Shown piece by piece: positions 1,645 through 17,166 of a stretch of 22,983 nucleotides of DNA (its first letter is position 1; every line of letters begins with the position of its first letter). Origin of the DNA: a virus; IMG/VR virus record IMGVR_UViG_3300020463_000145, positions 1 to 22,983 of that record. One strand, written 5' to 3'. Both the position numbers and the translations under genes were made by a program. Below the pieces are notes generated by a model. The model was not told the origin of the DNA, made no database searches, and was given only the letters and a program-made list of their open reading frames with translations.

Positions 1645-2403
1645 ATGCCAGTAAAAAGAAAAAGTAATCATCAGAAAGCACCTGGTCAGGGCATGACTCT
1701 GAAACAGAGGAAGCGTAGGAAACCTATTAGTGAAGACTATATGGTTCCTGTTGAACCCATCACAGATAATCAAAAAAGATTCTTTGATGCGTGGGATGAA
1801 GGTAAGATGATCTATGCCTATGGTGTAGCAGGAACAGGTAAAACTTTTATTGCTTTGTATAAAGCTTTGAAAGATGTTCTAGGAGAGACAACACCATACG
1901 AGAAGATCTATATTGTTAGATCGTTAGTTGCTACTAGAGAGATTGGTTTCTTACCTGGTGATCACGAGGACAAGTCATCACTGTATCAGATACCATACAA
2001 GAACATGGTACAAGCAATGTTTGAAATGCCTGATGACAATTCTTATGAAATGTTGTATGATAATCTTAAGGCACAAGAAACAATATCATTCTGGTCTACC
2101 AGTTTCATTCGTGGAACTACATTAGATAATGCTGTTGTTATAATTGATGAGTGTCAAAACTTAAACTTCCATGAGTTAGATAGTATTATCACTCGTGTAG
2201 GACAGGACAGTAGGATTATATTCTGTGGTGATGCTGCACAAACTGACTTGCAAAAGATCAGTGAGCGTAGTGGTATTTTAGACTTCCAACGTATCATTCA
2301 GAACATGGAAGAGTTTTCTTTAGTGGAATTTAATCTAGAAGATATTGTTAGGTCTGGTCTTGTTAGATCTTATCTAATTAATAAAATTAATTTAGGATTA
2401 TGA
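1645..2403 (+). CDS. phoH: PhoH-like P-loop ATPase
   Basis: PhoH-family ATPase, 252 residues. The Walker A motif GVAGTGKT is at residues 60-67, a Walker B-like motif VVIIDECQN is near 165-172, and a GDAAQTDL motif follows, all typical of PhoH and of the SF1 helicase-like ATPase core. The N-terminal 40 residues are basic and probably disordered. PhoH is very common in marine phages; a phosphate-stress or RNA-related role has been proposed but is not settled. It starts one base after the preceding stop codon and overlaps the next gene by ATGA, so it belongs to the same operon as thyX and ho1. Confidence 0.93.
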   Translation: MPVKRKSNHQKAPGQGMTLKQRKRRKPISEDYMVPVEPITDNQKRFFDAWDEGKMIYAYGVAGTGKTFIALYKALKDVLGETTPYEKIYIVRSLVATREIGFLPGDHEDKSSLYQIPYKNMVQAMFEMPDDNSYEMLYDNLKAQETISFWSTSFIRGTTLDNAVVIIDECQNLNFHELDSIITRVGQDSRIIFCGDAAQTDLQKISERSGILDFQRIIQNMEEFSLVEFNLEDIVRSGLVRSYLINKINLGL

Positions 2404-3095
2404 AATTATATAATCACATTGGACTTGATCCTATTGAATTATGTGCTACAATGGTGGAAGGTAAACGTGTTTACTCTACACCCGAAGGAGATAGGTTTCC
2501 ATCTGTCACCACTGTGATTAGTAACAATGCCGAGAAGAAAAAAGCAATAGCAAAATGGAGGAAAAGAGTAGGCACAGAAAAAGCAAATAATATAAGTGCG
2601 AGATCAACACACCGAGGTACAAAGTATCATTCTATTGTAGAAGATTATCTTAACAACCAACTAACTCTGTCAGAATATGATAAGTATCCACTTCCAGTTC
2701 TGATGTTTCAGCATAGCGTTAAGACTCTAGAAAGGATAAATAATATATACCTCCAAGAAGCAGCACTTTATAGTAGACATCTTGAATTGGCAGGAAGAGT
2801 AGATTGTATTGCTGAGTTTGATGGCGAACTTTCTATCATTGACTTCAAGACATCTGCTGAACCAAAACGAGAAAAATACATGTATGATTATTTCGTACAG
2901 GAAACTGCCTATGCATGTATGCTTCAAGAACAATATGATATAACTGTCAAACAACTAGTAACAATCGTTGCTTGTGAAAATGGAGAAACTCAAGTGGTAT
3001 CACGACCACCTAAGAAAGAATTTTTCATCAAGTTGATGTCATACATTGACGAATACCAAGAACGATATGGACAAAAAACAATTATTAGAGGATAA
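2400..3095 (+). CDS. PD-(D/E)XK exonuclease (Cas4/MGME1-like)
   Basis: A 231-residue nuclease of the RecB/Cas4 type. The N-terminal part has the HRGTKYHSIVEDYL helix with the conserved His. The catalytic core GRVDCIAEFDGELSIIDFKT (about residues 135-154) carries the motif II Asp and the D-x-K pair. The helix YFVQETAYACML supplies the downstream Gln/Tyr motif. This arrangement resembles the mitochondrial MGME1 exonuclease and the exonuclease annotated in many cyanophages. It likely works in replication or recombination, in keeping with gp33 and gp32 downstream. It overlaps phoH (ATGA) at its start and gp33 at its end. Exact polarity and substrate cannot be read from the sequence. Confidence 0.85.
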   Translation: MKLYNHIGLDPIELCATMVEGKRVYSTPEGDRFPSVTTVISNNAEKKKAIAKWRKRVGTEKANNISARSTHRGTKYHSIVEDYLNNQLTLSEYDKYPLPVLMFQHSVKTLERINNIYLQEAALYSRHLELAGRVDCIAEFDGELSIIDFKTSAEPKREKYMYDYFVQETAYACMLQEQYDITVKQLVTIVACENGETQVVSRPPKKEFFIKLMSYIDEYQERYGQKTIIRG

Positions 3096-9506: not shown

Positions 9507-10220
9507 ATGGCATTGCCAAAACTGGATTTACCAATTTATGAATTGGTATTACCATCAACAAAGAAGAAAGTTAAATATAGACCATTTCTAGTCAAAGAAG
9601 AGAAAGTATTGTTAATTGCACTAGAAAGTAATGATGAAAAAAATATTAGAGAAGCAGTTGTACAACTATTGAAGGGATGTATTCAAAGTAGACTAAAAGT
9701 AGAAAATTTGTCTACTTTTGATTTGGAATATATCTTCTTAAATATTCGTGCTGTATCTGTAGGTGAACAAGTAGAAATGAAGATAACTTGCACAGATGAC
9801 AATAAAACTGAAGTTGGGTATACTTTAAATTTGCAAGATGTAGAAGTTAATTTTCCAAAAGGACATACTAACAAAATCATGCTAACTGACACTACAGGTA
9901 TCATAATGAAATATCCATCATTTAGTAGATTTGTAGAATCTAACTTTACAGAAAAAGAAATAAATCAAGAAAGTGTTCTTGATATTATTGCAGAAAGCAT
10001 AGATCAAATATTTCAAGGAGATGAGGTATTTGATGAATCTACTACCACTAAAAAAGAATTTTTACAATTTGTAGAAAGTTTAACTACTGAACAATTAACA
10101 AAAATTCAAGAATTTTTTGAAACTGCTCCTAAATTACAACATACTTTTAAGATTAAAAATCCAAATACAGGAGTTGAATCTGATTATACTATATCAGGAC
10201 TGAATAATTTTTTCGGATAG
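9507..10220 (+). CDS. 26: Baseplate hub / tail assembly protein gp26
   Basis: T4 gp26-family protein (T4 gp26 is 208 residues), 237 residues from the ATG at 9507. The N-terminal MALPKLDLPIYELVLPSTKKKVKYRPFLVKEEK is typical, followed by a conserved helical and strand region (STFDLEYIFLNIRAVSVGEQ). In T4, gp26 is a hub assembly factor. Its position directly before the tape measure is that of the tail assembly chaperones of other long-tailed phages. Its last codons, AAT TTT TTC GGA TAG, contain a slippery heptamer with a downstream hairpin, so a share of ribosomes may read on into the -1 frame to give a 297-residue fusion. It has its own late promoter. Confidence 0.85.
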   Translation: MALPKLDLPIYELVLPSTKKKVKYRPFLVKEEKVLLIALESNDEKNIREAVVQLLKGCIQSRLKVENLSTFDLEYIFLNIRAVSVGEQVEMKITCTDDNKTEVGYTLNLQDVEVNFPKGHTNKIMLTDTTGIIMKYPSFSRFVESNFTEKEINQESVLDIIAESIDQIFQGDEVFDESTTTKKEFLQFVESLTTEQLTKIQEFFETAPKLQHTFKIKNPNTGVESDYTISGLNNFFG

Positions 10221-10245
10221 CCCTCTTTCATAATACGCTAGAGGG
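10208..10245 (+). promoter_or_regulatory. Programmed -1 frameshift signal in gp26
   Basis: The slippery heptamer T TTT TTC (10208-10214) is in the correct phase relative to gp26 (AAT TTT TTC). After a six-base spacer comes a perfect 6-bp stem: CCCTCT (10221-10226) with AGAGGG (10240-10245), loop 13 bases. The 0-frame stop TAG is at 10218-10220. In the -1 frame a TAA at 10205-10207 lies immediately before the heptamer, and the frame is then open to 10399. Confidence 0.8.
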
Positions 10246-10399
10246 ATACTACAAAACTAACTTTGCTTTGATGCAACATCATAAATACAGCTTGAGCGAT
10301 CTTGAAAATATGATGCCCTTTGAAAGACAAGTCTATACTACATTATTAATGCAATACCTAGAACAGGTAAAACAACAACAAGCACAACAGAAAAGATAA
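10214..10399 (+). CDS. -1 frame extension of gp26 (gp51-like)
   Basis: The -1 frame after the slippery site encodes 61 residues: RIALFHNTLEGYYKTNFAL, then MQHHKYSLSDLENMMPFER, then QVYTTLLMQYLEQVKQQQ and a basic tail. It has no start codon before an ATG at 10271, which would leave only 42 residues and cut off the patterned N-terminal third; that ATG has no clear ribosome-binding site. The sequence resembles cyanophage proteins annotated as gp51-like baseplate hub assembly catalysts, from memory. It ends in a TAATG junction with the tape measure gene. I infer it is made mainly as a gp26 fusion, like lambda gpGT. Initiation at 10271 as a separate protein is the alternative. Confidence 0.72.
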   Translation, partial: RIALFHNTLEGYYKTNFALMQHHKYSLSDLENMMPFERQVYTTLLMQYLEQVKQQQAQQKR

Positions 10400-12621
10400 T
10401 GGCAGCAGGAACAGTCGGTTACACAGATACTAGAGGTAATAAAGATTACCTAGGTATGATTGCGTCTCAAATTAAAAATAGAGTGACCGAAGCATCTGAC
10501 ATGGCAAATGAGGAACGTCAGTTTGCAGAAGAAAAAGCAGAATCTGGTGGAACATCATTAGACGAGGCAGGAATAGGTAAAGGTTTCTTTTTTGGGAAAG
10601 CATTAGGTAGTAGATTTGGTGGAGATGCAATTGCTAGAACTAGAGGTAGGTTTGCAAAAACTCCAGGTGCAGGGATAGATCCTGCTGGTAATGCTGCATC
10701 TAGATTTCGTGGAGGTTTTGATTTTAATGTTACTAACGAAATCGCAACTGGAGATACTTCTAATATAGAAGCTGCACTTATTAGTGGACTTAGCGGTGTA
10801 TCACAAGGATTGCAAGGTGTATCACAAGCACTTATTAAAATAGATGATACTCTTGGTGGATTAGAAAGAACACAAATGGACATGGCAAGAGCAATCATGT
10901 TCCAAGGATATATAAATCAAATGTTGTTAAGTCAACAACAACGAGCAGCTGGAAGAGATTCTTTAAGAAGAGAAGAAAGATCAATTGAAGGTGGTGGTAG
11001 TGGTAGAATTGGCGGTGCAGGATTTGGTGGTGGCGGTGGTGGTCGTGGAATGATCAATGTCACACCAGGTGGTCGTAGATCTGGTGGAGGTTTTAATCCT
11101 TTAAGAGATGGATTAGGAAGTTTTGGAACATCTCAATTGTTAGGAAGAAACACAGCAACTAAAGGAGCACTAAGTAAAGGAACAAATCTTGCTAAATCTG
11201 TTAATTTGAGTAAAGTAGCCCGTAATACTTCAAACTTATTAAAAGTTCCTGCAACTGGATTGAGAAGTGCGTTTACTAATGCAAAAAACTTAACTCCACT
11301 TAAATCTTTAAAGGCACTTAAGGATACCATTACAGCTCAATCTGCAGCGGGACTTTTAGGACTTAGACTAAATCCAGTTGAACAATTAAAAAACTTCTCT
11401 AAGATTAGTAAATATGATAAAGTTGCACAGGATATGGCTAAAGGAACTAAAAGTTTTCTTAGAGGTGGATTTAGAGGTGCATCTTCAGTTCAGCCTTTTC
11501 TAGATGCAATGGATTCTACTCCAGATGAATTTGCTAAGTTTATTGAAAGTTTTGAAGATATTCCCGCAGATCAAATAGATAATGTCTTTGACGATTTAGC
11601 AAAAACTGGTTTTAAACAATCAGATTTTAAACATATTGCAACTGGTAACTATAGTCCTGAGTCATTAATTACAAGTGTGCATTCGGTTAAAAATCCTAAA
11701 TTTATTGAGCCTGCTACAGAATTAATGGAAGGAGTTAGTAGACCCCCACGCATAATTAATAAAAAATTATCCCAAAAAGCAGCAGAAGAAGTTACTCCAC
11801 AAAGAATTGCAGATCTATCTGATGCTGGTGTTAAGACAGCAGACATCGCAACTGATCAAATTGTTAAACAGGGAACTAAACAAGGACTCAGAAGAGGTGG
11901 TAAATTAACTAGAATGATGGTTAAGAAATTTGGTGCTGCTGGAACCAGATCTATTCTTAAGAAAATTCCAGTTGTTGCTGGTGCTGCTGGTGTTTTATTT
12001 GGTATCCAACGTGCATTAGAGGGAGATCTTTTTGGTGCTGGTCTTGAAATTACTTCTGGATTATTAGGTGCTACTGGTGTAGGTGGTGGTCTTGGATTAG
12101 CTATTGACGGTTTCTTACTTGGTAGAGATTTAGGTGCAATACCAATGGCAAAGGGTGCTCTTGTATCGGGACCTACTAATGCATTAGTTGGAGAAGCAGG
12201 TCCTGAGTTAGTAACACCTTTAAATGATGAAACATTTATTAAGTTTGGTGAGGGTATATTGAACGCTAATAAAAGAAACTATTCAGAGTTCTCAAAACAA
12301 AATGCGTCATGGTTAGCAAATATGGGAGGTAGTGGAGAAGGAGACAATTCTTTATTCAAAATTAATTTTGCTGGTAATGATAAGGTTGACTTAGATGGTA
12401 TTAGTTCAAATGTGAGAGAAATTGCTCCTGCTATAAATTCACTATCTCAACAAATTGTGAGTACTGCTGGCGGTGGTGGAACTAACGTAGTTAATAACGT
12501 AGTAAATAATTATGGATCAGGTGGAAAACCTGGTGAAGGTGGTGGAGAAGATAATGGAGGAGATTTCTCTAGCTCAGGTTTAGATGCGTTTAGATTACAA
12601 TATCTTGGGAGTCTTAGTTAA
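10399..12621 (+). CDS. Tape measure protein (gp29-like)
   Basis: A 740-residue protein in the tape measure position, after the gp26 chaperone genes and before the hub. T4 gp29 is 590 residues. It has a polar, helical N-terminus, a Gly-rich linker near residues 197-235, long Lys/Ser/Ala helices, and a hydrophobic Gly/Ala segment near 520-595. It then has VSGPTNALVGEAGPELVTPL, the hallmark C-terminal motif of many phage tape measures. The end is Gly/Asn-rich (VVNNVVNNYGSGG). The protein would fix tail length and may pass into the host membrane at infection. It overlaps the frameshift extension (TAATG) and the next gene (TAATG). There is almost no Cys, as is common for tape measures. Confidence 0.8.
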   Translation: MAAGTVGYTDTRGNKDYLGMIASQIKNRVTEASDMANEERQFAEEKAESGGTSLDEAGIGKGFFFGKALGSRFGGDAIARTRGRFAKTPGAGIDPAGNAASRFRGGFDFNVTNEIATGDTSNIEAALISGLSGVSQGLQGVSQALIKIDDTLGGLERTQMDMARAIMFQGYINQMLLSQQQRAAGRDSLRREERSIEGGGSGRIGGAGFGGGGGGRGMINVTPGGRRSGGGFNPLRDGLGSFGTSQLLGRNTATKGALSKGTNLAKSVNLSKVARNTSNLLKVPATGLRSAFTNAKNLTPLKSLKALKDTITAQSAAGLLGLRLNPVEQLKNFSKISKYDKVAQDMAKGTKSFLRGGFRGASSVQPFLDAMDSTPDEFAKFIESFEDIPADQIDNVFDDLAKTGFKQSDFKHIATGNYSPESLITSVHSVKNPKFIEPATELMEGVSRPPRIINKKLSQKAAEEVTPQRIADLSDAGVKTADIATDQIVKQGTKQGLRRGGKLTRMMVKKFGAAGTRSILKKIPVVAGAAGVLFGIQRALEGDLFGAGLEITSGLLGATGVGGGLGLAIDGFLLGRDLGAIPMAKGALVSGPTNALVGEAGPELVTPLNDETFIKFGEGILNANKRNYSEFSKQNASWLANMGGSGEGDNSLFKINFAGNDKVDLDGISSNVREIAPAINSLSQQIVSTAGGGGTNVVNNVVNNYGSGGKPGEGGGEDNGGDFSSSGLDAFRLQYLGSLS

Positions 12622-14158: not shown

Positions 14159-14386
14159 ATGAAAAGCATAGAAGATCATATTAAAAAGGACAAAGAAATC
14201 CTTGAGGATCCAAAAACATCAGAACCCATGCGTCATCATATTGAAGATGAACTGCATGATTTGGAAGAGTATGTAGAACATCATAAAGATGAAATAAAGG
14301 CAGGAGATCATCACGACCCTAGTGTATTAGAGGTATTCTGTGATGTACACCCTGATGAACCAGAGTGTTTAGTATATGACGATTAA
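14159..14386 (+). CDS. cp12: CP12-like Calvin cycle regulator
   Basis: A 75-residue acidic, His-rich protein. The C-terminus CDVHPDEPECLVYDD (Cys61, Cys70) is the CP12 signature C-D-x-x-P-D-x-x-EC-x-x-YDD, which in hosts forms a redox loop that binds GAPDH and, with PRK, switches off the Calvin cycle. The central helix (HHIEDELHDLEEYVEHH) stands where hosts have AWD-x-VEEL, and the N-terminal Cys pair is absent. Cyanophage CP12 proteins are known and are thought to divert carbon from fixation to the pentose phosphate route. GGAGGT precedes the ATG at good spacing. It shares TAATG with the gp5-like gene, so it is co-transcribed with baseplate genes. Confidence 0.88.
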   Translation: MKSIEDHIKKDKEILEDPKTSEPMRHHIEDELHDLEEYVEHHKDEIKAGDHHDPSVLEVFCDVHPDEPECLVYDD

Positions 14387-17166
14387 TGGATGAATCATTT
14401 TCACGCATAGTACCTTCTCATAGAGTTGGTAATGATGGTTTCAACTGGTGGATTGGCCAAGTTGAAATTTCTGCTGCGGATGAAGAAAATAACAAAGGTG
14501 GTTACAGATATAAGGTAGCAATCGTAGGAGAACATCCTGCTGATAAGAACTCACTGGACACAAGTCAGTTGCCATGGGCAAACGTGATGATGCCAGTAAC
14601 TCACCCATTCACACCAGGTGCAATTGGAGGAGCTCATCCTCAGTTGGTAAATGGTTGTTGGGTGATGGGTTTTTATCTTGATAATGATAAAAATAAACCT
14701 ATAATCATTGGTTCAATTGGTCAAACACCAGGTGCCACAAGTAATATTCAAGATTGTATTCCTGATGATAAGACTAGATTTAAGACTTGTGTAAAAACAG
14801 ATGAAGTATTTGCACCAATAGTTGAAGTTGATGGAGAAGAGGGTAGTATAGATGATAAACAAAGGCAAACTGTTTTAGCAGATGGAACAAGAGATGGTGA
14901 TGGTAAGGAAAGAGTAGACTTAGGAACTAGAAAAAAAGAAGATTTTAAAAGAGAAGAATTTTGTATTACACCAGCAAGTGAAGGAGATTGTGATGACTTA
15001 AAAAAAGATTTCACATACATTCTTGGTAATTTTTTAAAAGATGTACAAAACAGCAATGGTAATGTAGGAACATACTATACTAGCAAAGTTACAGGAAGTG
15101 TTAATGACACTATTAATATAGGAAGAAGATATGTACATAAAGCAATTGCTGTAATTCAAAAATTCCTAGCAAAAGTAAAGGGATACATAACATCACTTTT
15201 ACAGAAGGCAGTAAATAAATTAGTCAAAGCACTATTAAGACCTTCTGAGAGTGGTAATGCTTTAACACCTGTAACAGAATTTTTTAACAAACTTCTTAAA
15301 AATTTGGGTTGTAAAATGGCAGACCTAGGTGATAGGTTGATTTCATGGTTAACAAATCTTTTAATGAGTTACATCAATCAAATCTATCGTGCTGCTGTAT
15401 GTCAGGTAGATGAGTTAGTAAACGGAATTATCTCTAAAATAATTCAATTAATGAATGAATTGTTTGATTCTATTTTAGGTCCTCTACAAGATATTCTAGG
15501 TGCTATTGCTGCCCCACTAAACATGATTGGTAATGCAATTAATTATATTCTAAATCTACTTGGTATTTCTTGTGATGGTCCTGACAATGATTGTGCAGAT
15601 GATAAACTATGTACAACTGGAGAAAGAGGAAATGCTGTAGATGACTTCCTAGACAAATTATTAGCAGATCTTGATACTTTGTTTGGCGATACTCCTGCTG
15701 ATTTTACACAATATGTTTGCGATGAAGCATATACAGGTGCACCATTAACTTTCACAACTGTAGGATTTACAGGGGGAGTTCCTCAAATAGGAACTGGAAC
15801 TAATTCACCAAAAATTACATACTCTATTAATGATATACAGGTAACAGAGGGTGATATTGCAATATTTACTGTTACTAGATCTGGTCAGACTGATATAGCA
15901 TCATCTGTTGAGTTTAAAGTACTGAATGGTCAAGGAACTGCTACTGTCGGACAAGATTTTCTTAATGCAGACGGTATTTTAGGATTCTCTCCTAATGAAA
16001 CTGCTAAAACTATTGAAATCCAAACTTTAGTTGATTTTGATAGTGATAGTAATGAGACTTTCTTTATTAGAATAAAAAATAACTCCCCAGAGGGAAGTAT
16101 ACCAATTAAATTTAAAAAAGATATTGGTAAATGCACTATTATAGAGAAAGATATAAAAGAACCTTACGATCCTTATAAACCAGATCCAACAGATCCATTT
16201 GATCCAATACCAGACATACCAGATAACATATTAGATGAAGACGATGGAACTGGTGATAGTGGTGATACAACACCTACTTTTGCTGTGGTTGCAAATAGAT
16301 CATCAGTTCCAGAGGGAGAATTTGTAATTTATACGGTCACAACAACTAATGTTGAAAGTGGAAGTATACTGTATTACACTCTATCTGGTGTTGGTATTAC
16401 AAATGATGATATTGTTGGTAATAAATTAACTGGCGAATTTGTAATTGACACCAATACTGCAAAAATTACAGTTGGAATTGCTGATGATAGTACAGTAGAA
16501 GATATAGAGACTTTAACTTTTACAATTAATGGAACAGATGCATCAGTAGATGTTCTTATTACAGTAGACGATGTTGATATTGAGGATGGAGGTGTTGGTG
16601 ATTCCCCAGAAACTGTATTTGAAGACTTTAAACTTCCAATAGTCAACACTGGTGACATCATTACAGATGAAAATGGTGGTATTATAGAAATACCTATTGA
16701 TAATCCTGGTGGTGCATGGGCAGAAGCACCTTATGTTTTCATTGGTGGAGAAGGAAATGGTGCAACAGGAGTTGGTTTATTAGATGAAGGAGGGTTTCTT
16801 ACAGAAATTAGAATTCATTCATCAGGATTTGGATACAAGAAAAATCTTGCGAAAGATAAAAATGTAAGATGTATCATTGATTCATTTACTATACTGAAAA
16901 CAGGCAGAGGTTACACATCTACTCCAGATTTATATGTAAATGGTCAACTTGGTATTGCAGAAGCAATCGTAGAAAATGAAGTTGTTATTGGTGCTCGTAT
17001 ATTAAATAGACAAATAACTTTTGAAAAATTCCCTGCAATTAGTATTGTAGGTGGAGGCGGTTATGGTGCTAGAATGTTACCATCACTAGCATGTCTAGAT
17101 ACTAATGCTCTTACTACAGTTGGTGCTACTAAGATTGGTACTGGTAAATATGTTGATTGCCCATAA
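14386..17166 (+). CDS. 5: gp5-like hub spike with OB fold and Calx-beta domains
   Basis: A 926-residue protein. Residues 1-115 form the gp5-type OB fold: FNWWIGQVEIS, KVAIVGEHP, LPWANVMMPVTHPF and VMGFYLDNDKNKPIIIGSIG. No T4-like lysozyme domain follows. Instead there is an acidic linker (to about 200), an amphipathic helical region with several Cys (about 240-440), two Calx-beta-like domains (about 482-587 and 631-730) joined by a Pro/Asp-rich linker, and a Gly-rich C-terminal region (about 770-920) with GFGYKK and GRGYTSTP. The OB fold would attach the spike to the hub, and the added domains may contact the cell surface. The stop overlaps the next start (TAATG). Confidence 0.83.
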   Translation: MDESFSRIVPSHRVGNDGFNWWIGQVEISAADEENNKGGYRYKVAIVGEHPADKNSLDTSQLPWANVMMPVTHPFTPGAIGGAHPQLVNGCWVMGFYLDNDKNKPIIIGSIGQTPGATSNIQDCIPDDKTRFKTCVKTDEVFAPIVEVDGEEGSIDDKQRQTVLADGTRDGDGKERVDLGTRKKEDFKREEFCITPASEGDCDDLKKDFTYILGNFLKDVQNSNGNVGTYYTSKVTGSVNDTINIGRRYVHKAIAVIQKFLAKVKGYITSLLQKAVNKLVKALLRPSESGNALTPVTEFFNKLLKNLGCKMADLGDRLISWLTNLLMSYINQIYRAAVCQVDELVNGIISKIIQLMNELFDSILGPLQDILGAIAAPLNMIGNAINYILNLLGISCDGPDNDCADDKLCTTGERGNAVDDFLDKLLADLDTLFGDTPADFTQYVCDEAYTGAPLTFTTVGFTGGVPQIGTGTNSPKITYSINDIQVTEGDIAIFTVTRSGQTDIASSVEFKVLNGQGTATVGQDFLNADGILGFSPNETAKTIEIQTLVDFDSDSNETFFIRIKNNSPEGSIPIKFKKDIGKCTIIEKDIKEPYDPYKPDPTDPFDPIPDIPDNILDEDDGTGDSGDTTPTFAVVANRSSVPEGEFVIYTVTTTNVESGSILYYTLSGVGITNDDIVGNKLTGEFVIDTNTAKITVGIADDSTVEDIETLTFTINGTDASVDVLITVDDVDIEDGGVGDSPETVFEDFKLPIVNTGDIITDENGGIIEIPIDNPGGAWAEAPYVFIGGEGNGATGVGLLDEGGFLTEIRIHSSGFGYKKNLAKDKNVRCIIDSFTILKTGRGYTSTPDLYVNGQLGIAEAIVENEVVIGARILNRQITFEKFPAISIVGGGGYGARMLPSLACLDTNALTTVGATKIGTGKYVDCP

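Follow-up and report, generated by a model that had tools for sequence, protein, structure and literature searches.

A predicted -1 frameshift would yield two tail chaperone forms from one gp26-family gene in T4-like cyanophages

How might a T4-like cyanophage express a conserved reading frame that follows its gp26 gene and lacks a usable start codon? This question is raised by an IMG/VR virus record (IMGVR_UViG_3300020463_000145; 22,983 bases, here referred to in its entirety as the window), the genes of which were shown by sequence comparison to match those of T4-like marine cyanophages. Within the window, the gp26 ORF sits directly 5' of a putative tape measure ORF, and the features of the junction between them are listed in Table 1. 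The last two sense codons of gp26 but one, TTT (10209-10211) and TTC (10212-10214), form part of a heptamer that fits the pattern X_XXY_YYZ in phase, with one Gly codon between the heptamer and the gp26 stop. The -1 frame carries a TAA (10205-10207) directly 5' of the heptamer, contains 61 open codons after the presumed slip, remains open to position 10396, and ends in a TAA (10397-10399) that overlaps the tape measure ATG as TAATG. The stem that follows is a perfect 6 bp helix starting 6 nt past the heptamer, and RNAfold returned the same stem. Slippage to the -1 frame would thus produce a fusion of 236 + 61 = 297 aa. The heptamer and its phase, the six-base spacer and perfect stem, the -1 frame with its preceding stop, 61 open codons, lack of a good start and TAATG junction, and the product lengths of 237 and 297 residues had all been put forward in the original prediction, and each was confirmed.

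Table 1. Coordinates of the features at the predicted frameshift locus and of the second duplicated gene pair in other phages
Sequence	Feature	Position	Strand	Remark
Window	gp26 family gene (PF12322, phrog_150); short form, predicted TAC-N, 237 aa	9507..10220	+	ATG at 9507, TAG stop at 10218-10220; direct read
Window	SD-like TCAGGA, candidate upstream stimulator	10194..10199	+	8 nt 5' of heptamer; weak in the window
Window	Slippery heptamer T TTT TTC	10208..10214	+	Direct read
Window	6-nt spacer GGATAG	10215..10220	+	Includes 0-frame TAG stop; direct read
Window	Stem 5' arm CCCTCT	10221..10226	+	Pairs with 10240-10245
Window	Stem 3' arm AGAGGG	10240..10245	+
Window	-1 frame extension, 61 codons + TAA; predicted TAC-C	10214..10399	+	'gp51' in cyanophage records
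Window	Probable tape measure protein, 740-aa ORF	10399..12621	+	ATG overlaps -1 stop
Vibrio phage SRILMA	Second duplication	302-1644
Vibrio phage Va1	Second duplication	848-2190
Campylobacter phage CPt10	Second duplication	2286-3020

The reading that we favour, to which we assign a probability of roughly 93%, is that the phage makes two forms of a tail assembly chaperone (TAC) from one gene by -1 frameshifting, i.e. a short TAC-N and a TAC-NC fusion. The majority of ribosomes would finish gp26, whereas a minority, stalled by the downstream stem and possibly aided by the Shine-Dalgarno (SD)-like sequence upstream, would slip from T TTT TTC to TTT TTT, bypass the stop and complete the gp26-extension fusion. 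The short form would coat the tape measure protein encoded by the next gene, as with lambda gpG/gpGT, and the extension of the long form would recruit tail tube subunits. In T4 and its close relatives, the slip would be replaced by two genes, gp26 (the short form) and gp51 (a paralogue with the extension). The slip site, the stem and the conserved -1 frame are features of the sequences themselves; the frameshift and its rate are inferred.

A gp26-based search identified 81 junctions in full, with protein identities of about 40-93%; of these, 79 were shown to carry TTTTTTC and two TTTTTTT. In a non-redundant set of 44 relatives, with junction regions more than 10% different, TTTTTTC was present at 42 junctions, compared with 11 of 210 Phe-Phe pairs (5%) elsewhere in the same DNA. 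A second search, performed with a profile of the extension only and hence independent of gp26, retrieved 80 loci, each of which displayed six T followed by C (74 loci), T (4) or A (2), preceded by a gp26 frame that stays open for at least 150 codons. When both searches were combined, the slip run was found in 161/161 cyanophage-type junctions (153 TTTTTTC, 6 TTTTTTT and 2 TTTTTTA). The changes in the third letter that convert Phe to Leu yet leave the site slippery (TTA in two loci, and TTG in Rhizobium phage RHph_I46, which carries TTTTTTG) suggest that the conserved feature, last base aside, is the slip and not the protein. Comparative support for programmed -1 frameshifting is very strong. 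The loci share ancestry, and the family statistics given here for heptamer, stem and SD-like stretch are not independent draws.

The extension itself was shown to be subject to protein-level constraint. Over 46 codons in the 44 loci, the -1 frame contained no stops, whereas the two remaining frames held 208 and 222. In the stretch from the heptamer up to the first conserved Met, synonymous codon differences amounted to 38% in the -1 frame versus 7-8% in the other frames, indicating that the -1 frame evolves as a protein that starts at the heptamer. An alternative explanation is that the extension represents an independent small gene (gp51) with its own start, reached by internal initiation or by termination-reinitiation. 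Separate gp51 genes are indeed annotated in S-PM2 and S-RSM4, and TAATG or TGATG junctions occur in nt-1, PVA8, Cr30, RHph_I46 and Limestonevirus, so that reinitiation may add free extension in some of the non-cyanophage relatives. However, the annotated starts differ between phages, being non-equivalent internal codons in the cyanophage 'gp51' records where the gene is annotated at all, and the slip run and stem are retained where no start exists. In the window, the only candidate starts in the -1 frame are a TTG and an ATG, 60-63 nt into the overlap; no SD match (dG 0) was found before this first ATG, 63 nt in, and selection on the protein acts ahead of it. An independent T4-style gp51 gene was not found in the window, which offers no usable start and a single PF12322 copy. 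The original prediction was weighed against two patterns, a second frame with a conserved start and a heptamer lost while the extension is kept, and neither was observed, given that 23 of the 44 non-redundant relatives lack any ATG within the initial 45 nt of this frame and that the run is preserved in all extension-found loci. Expression as an independent gene is consequently considered very unlikely.

If the -1 extension is part of a fusion, the cyanophage 'gp51' would be the C-terminal portion of that protein rather than a gene in its own right. No annotated phage record among those examined joins both frames. Expression of the extension solely as part of a fusion would also explain the report by Sullivan et al. 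(2010) that gp51 is missing in Aeh1 and has ~20% of its normal length in cyanophages (PMC3037559).

To assess the downstream structure, 42 nt starting at +12 after the heptamer start were folded and compared with synonymous recodings of the extension. The mean z score over the 44 loci was -2.74 at this offset, compared with only -0.59 to +0.21 at six other downstream and seven upstream offsets. The signal was replicated in another 71 loci with mutual similarity below 85%, where the z score at +12 was -1.96, compared with -0.42 to +0.09 at the remaining offsets. The stem starts 5-9 nt past the heptamer in 41 of the 44 relatives, yet its shape varies by clade, ranging from 6 bp with a long loop through 9 bp and an 11-pair stem to as many as 15 pairs. 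Across clades, only the position and stability of the stem are thus conserved, while its sequence and register differ; the stem of the window is among the weaker ones and is not significant alone (z -1.35). Of the junction conservation that had been proposed, therefore, the heptamer and the position and stability of the stem held up, whereas the exact stem of the window is not present in every clade.

An SD-like stretch was also observed upstream of the heptamer, with a family mean dG peak of -6.0 at position -11 and presence in 43 of the 44 loci, compared with a null of 15. Synonymous resampling gave -5.04 +/- 0.21, and none of 1000 resamplings reached the family value, indicative of an enrichment that exceeds codon choice, yet is partly forced by a conserved Glu-Gly pair. 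The corresponding site in the window (dG -4.0; fraction 0.12) is not significant alone.

The T run could, in principle, instead cause slippage of RNA polymerase, yielding a mixed mRNA pool of which a part encodes the fusion. Six consecutive T occur throughout, and eight in a few loci, but six T are short for polymerase slippage, and the location of the stem at a ribosomal distance, the fixed codon phase and the variation confined to the last base fit X_XXY_YYZ. Slippage during transcription is accordingly viewed as highly improbable, and ribosomal frameshifting is retained as the preferred reading.

Profile comparisons were consistent with the assigned identity of the parts. The gp26 product matched PF12322 (T4_baseplate; E=3.3e-69, 233 bits, curated Pfam cut-off 24.5) and phrog_150 (3.5e-77), while the extension matched phrog_634 ('baseplate hub assembly catalyst'; 1.5e-27) and the C-terminus of phrog_150 (1.1e-5), the latter implying that the extension is encoded in frame in part of the gp26 family. 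The downstream ORF displayed a weak match to phrog_12798 (tape measure; 2.8e-4); in Cr30, the ORF after the junction is annotated as 'tail tape measure protein', and gene order is similar in relatives. Profile matches of this ORF also included entries named endolysin and peptidase, and its relatives bear names such as '2OG-Fe(II) oxygenase' and 'peptidase', possibly through carried-over misannotation. Elsewhere in the window, a 926-aa gp5-like hub protein with a Gp5_OB and a Calx-beta domain is encoded at 14386-17166, and a 235-aa ORF at 669-1376 resembles, by eye, a phage haem oxygenase, an auxiliary metabolic gene.

The function of the two products was addressed by structure prediction. No sequence relatives of gp26 or gp51 were found in the PDB. 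The AlphaFold (AF2) model of gp26 (mean pLDDT 86.5) gave as its top PDB matches the tail assembly chaperone of HK97 (2ob9, Z 6.7) and 3fgx (Z 6.5), followed by a third match at Z 5.0 and the remainder at 2.9 and below. The two top matches cover ~85 residues within the first 90 of gp26, and Z scores below 8 can reflect a common arrangement. Since Foldseek alone did not return a significant score (E=1.5), the fold supports a chaperone role without proving it. The extension, when modelled alone, was predicted at low confidence (pLDDT 68.7).

An alternative view accepts the frameshift, but regards gp26 and the fusion as structural parts of the hub rather than as a chaperone pair. Database names ('baseplate hub subunit') and genetic studies, cited in a review, that put gp26 in the hub (PMC3004832) are in line with this view. 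The same review nevertheless counts both gp26 and gp51 among the chaperones of hub assembly and reports that T4 gp51 is required for assembly, yet absent from the particle (PMC3004832); moreover, the best fold match is to the HK97 TAC, the gene lies directly before the tape measure gene, and passages citing Vladimirov et al. (2022) speak of chaperones in T4-like phages. A structural role is therefore deemed unlikely. The fold match, the place before the tape measure gene and the finding that T4 particles lack gp51 together make a chaperone role, which we infer from them, the best reading. The analogy with gpG/gpGT drawn in the original prediction is likewise supported by position, by the frameshift architecture and by this best, albeit weak, fold match.

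The proposed link to T4 gp26 and gp51 found more direct support. T4-type gp51 (from phage phiS) matched phrog_150 over its full length (6.3e-71), PF12322 (2e-43) and phrog_634 (3.2e-21), and the profile of the cyanophage extension aligns to residues 207-244 of T4 gp51 (E=2.8e-5), from which it follows that gp51 is a paralogue of gp26 to which the extension is fused in frame. An hhalign comparison of T4 gp51 with the A2 alignment is partly circular, as this alignment contains two gp51 rows; the phrog_150, phrog_634 and PF12322 matches and the extension-profile alignment are the non-circular tests. Whole-genome scans revealed a single PF12322 copy in every genome with a slip site, and two copies in T4, phiS, Konradin, PspYZU05, KpF2, SRILMA, Va1 and CPt10. 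Paralogy and copy numbers can, as such, be read from the sequences. In T4, genes 26 and 51 belong to the same family as the locus studied here and include the same extension; unlike here, they are two separate, divergently placed genes with no slip site, T4 gp26 ending in GAG TTC TTT GAG.

Phylogenetic analysis placed the gp26/gp51 pair of the T4 group in one group (support 98/97), and the pair of Vibrio phage SRILMA (Va1 type) and Campylobacter phage CPt10 in another (97/65), beside a frameshifting Rhizobium phage; the final tree does not include Atu_ph07, the branch of which was very long. A single origin of all gp51 copies was rejected (AU test, p=0.015), while a grouping of all duplicated genes was not (p=0.25); the tree also contains several long branches. 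The most likely scenario is that duplication took place twice among phages that used frameshifting. The direction from frameshifting to duplication is taken from the observation that frameshifting is the rule in other long-tailed phages (PMC5009743), not from the root of the tree. In Va1-type phages, gp26 and gp51 lie in tandem right before the tape measure gene, and in CPt10, gp51 adjoins the terminase gene, with gp26 located ~10 kb away. A search of viral_contigs with a Va1-type gp51 query retrieved no relatives.

The junction with the tape measure gene was also found to be tightly arranged. A simple rule allowed a tape measure start to be assigned in 107 loci, and in 98 of these it falls between -15 and +5 nt relative to the -1 stop. 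No SD match precedes the tape measure start of the window, while the SD of gp26 is good (dG -5.9). Translation of the tape measure gene is possibly coupled to the slipped ribosome; were its start used mainly by such ribosomes, its product and the long chaperone form would be tied to each other in amount. The combined proposal, that frameshifting is original in T4-like phages, that duplication replaced it at least twice independently (in the T4 group, and in Vibrio Va1-type and Campylobacter phages), and that slipped ribosomes make the long chaperone and the tape measure protein in a linked ratio, is considerably more tentative, and we regard it, taken as a whole, as less likely than not.

The same arrangement was detected beyond the cyanophages. 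The heptamer T TTT TTC followed by the extension is present in Straboviridae outside the T4 group (Aeh1, AS-zj, nt-1 and PVA8), in Stenotrophomonas phage DLP6 and in Pelagibacter phage Mosig, and T TTT TTT occupies this site in Caulobacter phage Cr30 and Sinorhizobium phage phiM19. No run of six T is found at the gp26 stop of Ackermannviridae and Vibrio phage K413; a conserved NNTTTTC occurs at the same place and is followed by a homologous-looking -1 extension (YSIFEI...MPWHLD). Kuttervirus lacks an ATG after the gp26 stop, and Limestonevirus carries its TAATG there. The NNTTTTC sequence resembles the slip site of T7 gene 10, and this variant may represent a weaker frameshift of that type or, alternatively, reinitiation.

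Comparison with known systems would place the locus among tail chaperone genes with a slip near their end. As in lambda gpG/gpGT, the gene lies directly before the tape measure gene and would undergo a low-level -1 frameshift near its end that appends a C-terminal extension (PMC5009743). The likeness to lambda drawn here is one of architecture, and the fold match is only to the HK97 relative, and weak. The lambda slip heptamer is GGGAAAG, unlike T TTT TTC. The E/E' tail genes of P2, which also has a contractile tail, use the T-run slip site T TTT TTG, i.e. the form seen here in Rhizobium phage RHph_I46; as far as is known, they belong to a different protein family. In the TAC of Pseudomonas phage Adele (Vandenendeviridae), a T run ahead of the tape measure gene likewise serves a conserved -1 frameshift, but the motif is GTTTTT and the phage belongs to another family (PMC12846349).

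The core of this finding was probably already described in 2022. A passage in the PRFect paper cites Vladimirov, Gautam & Davidson (Virology 2022, 566:9-15) for T4-like phages with one short and one longer fused chaperone gene (PMC10885494), and a passage in the Adele paper refers to it for the poly-T slip sites that TAC-N genes of T4-like phages contain (PMC12846349). In view of these citations, the core is taken as published in outline, with the window as a further member. The 2022 study reportedly finds frameshifting retained by several groups of T4-like phages, with separate genes in its place in the T4 group. A search of the open literature for gp26/gp51 together with frameshifting returned only unrelated phages that share these gene numbers. 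The second, apparently independent duplication in Vibrio Va1-type and Campylobacter phages and the stem that is conserved in position but variable in sequence are probably new; the same may hold for the variant seen in Ackermannviridae and for a possible coupling of the slip to translation of the tape measure gene.

These observations, if the predicted frameshift holds, would correct a standing annotation error, in which the cyanophage 'gp51' is listed as a tiny separate gene or missed. They would also bring T4-like phages under the gpG/gpGT rule, to which a major review considered T4 an exception (PMC5009743), and would explain T4 gp51 as the long chaperone form, arisen by duplication. Frameshifting and gene duplication would then represent alternative answers to one and the same stoichiometry problem.
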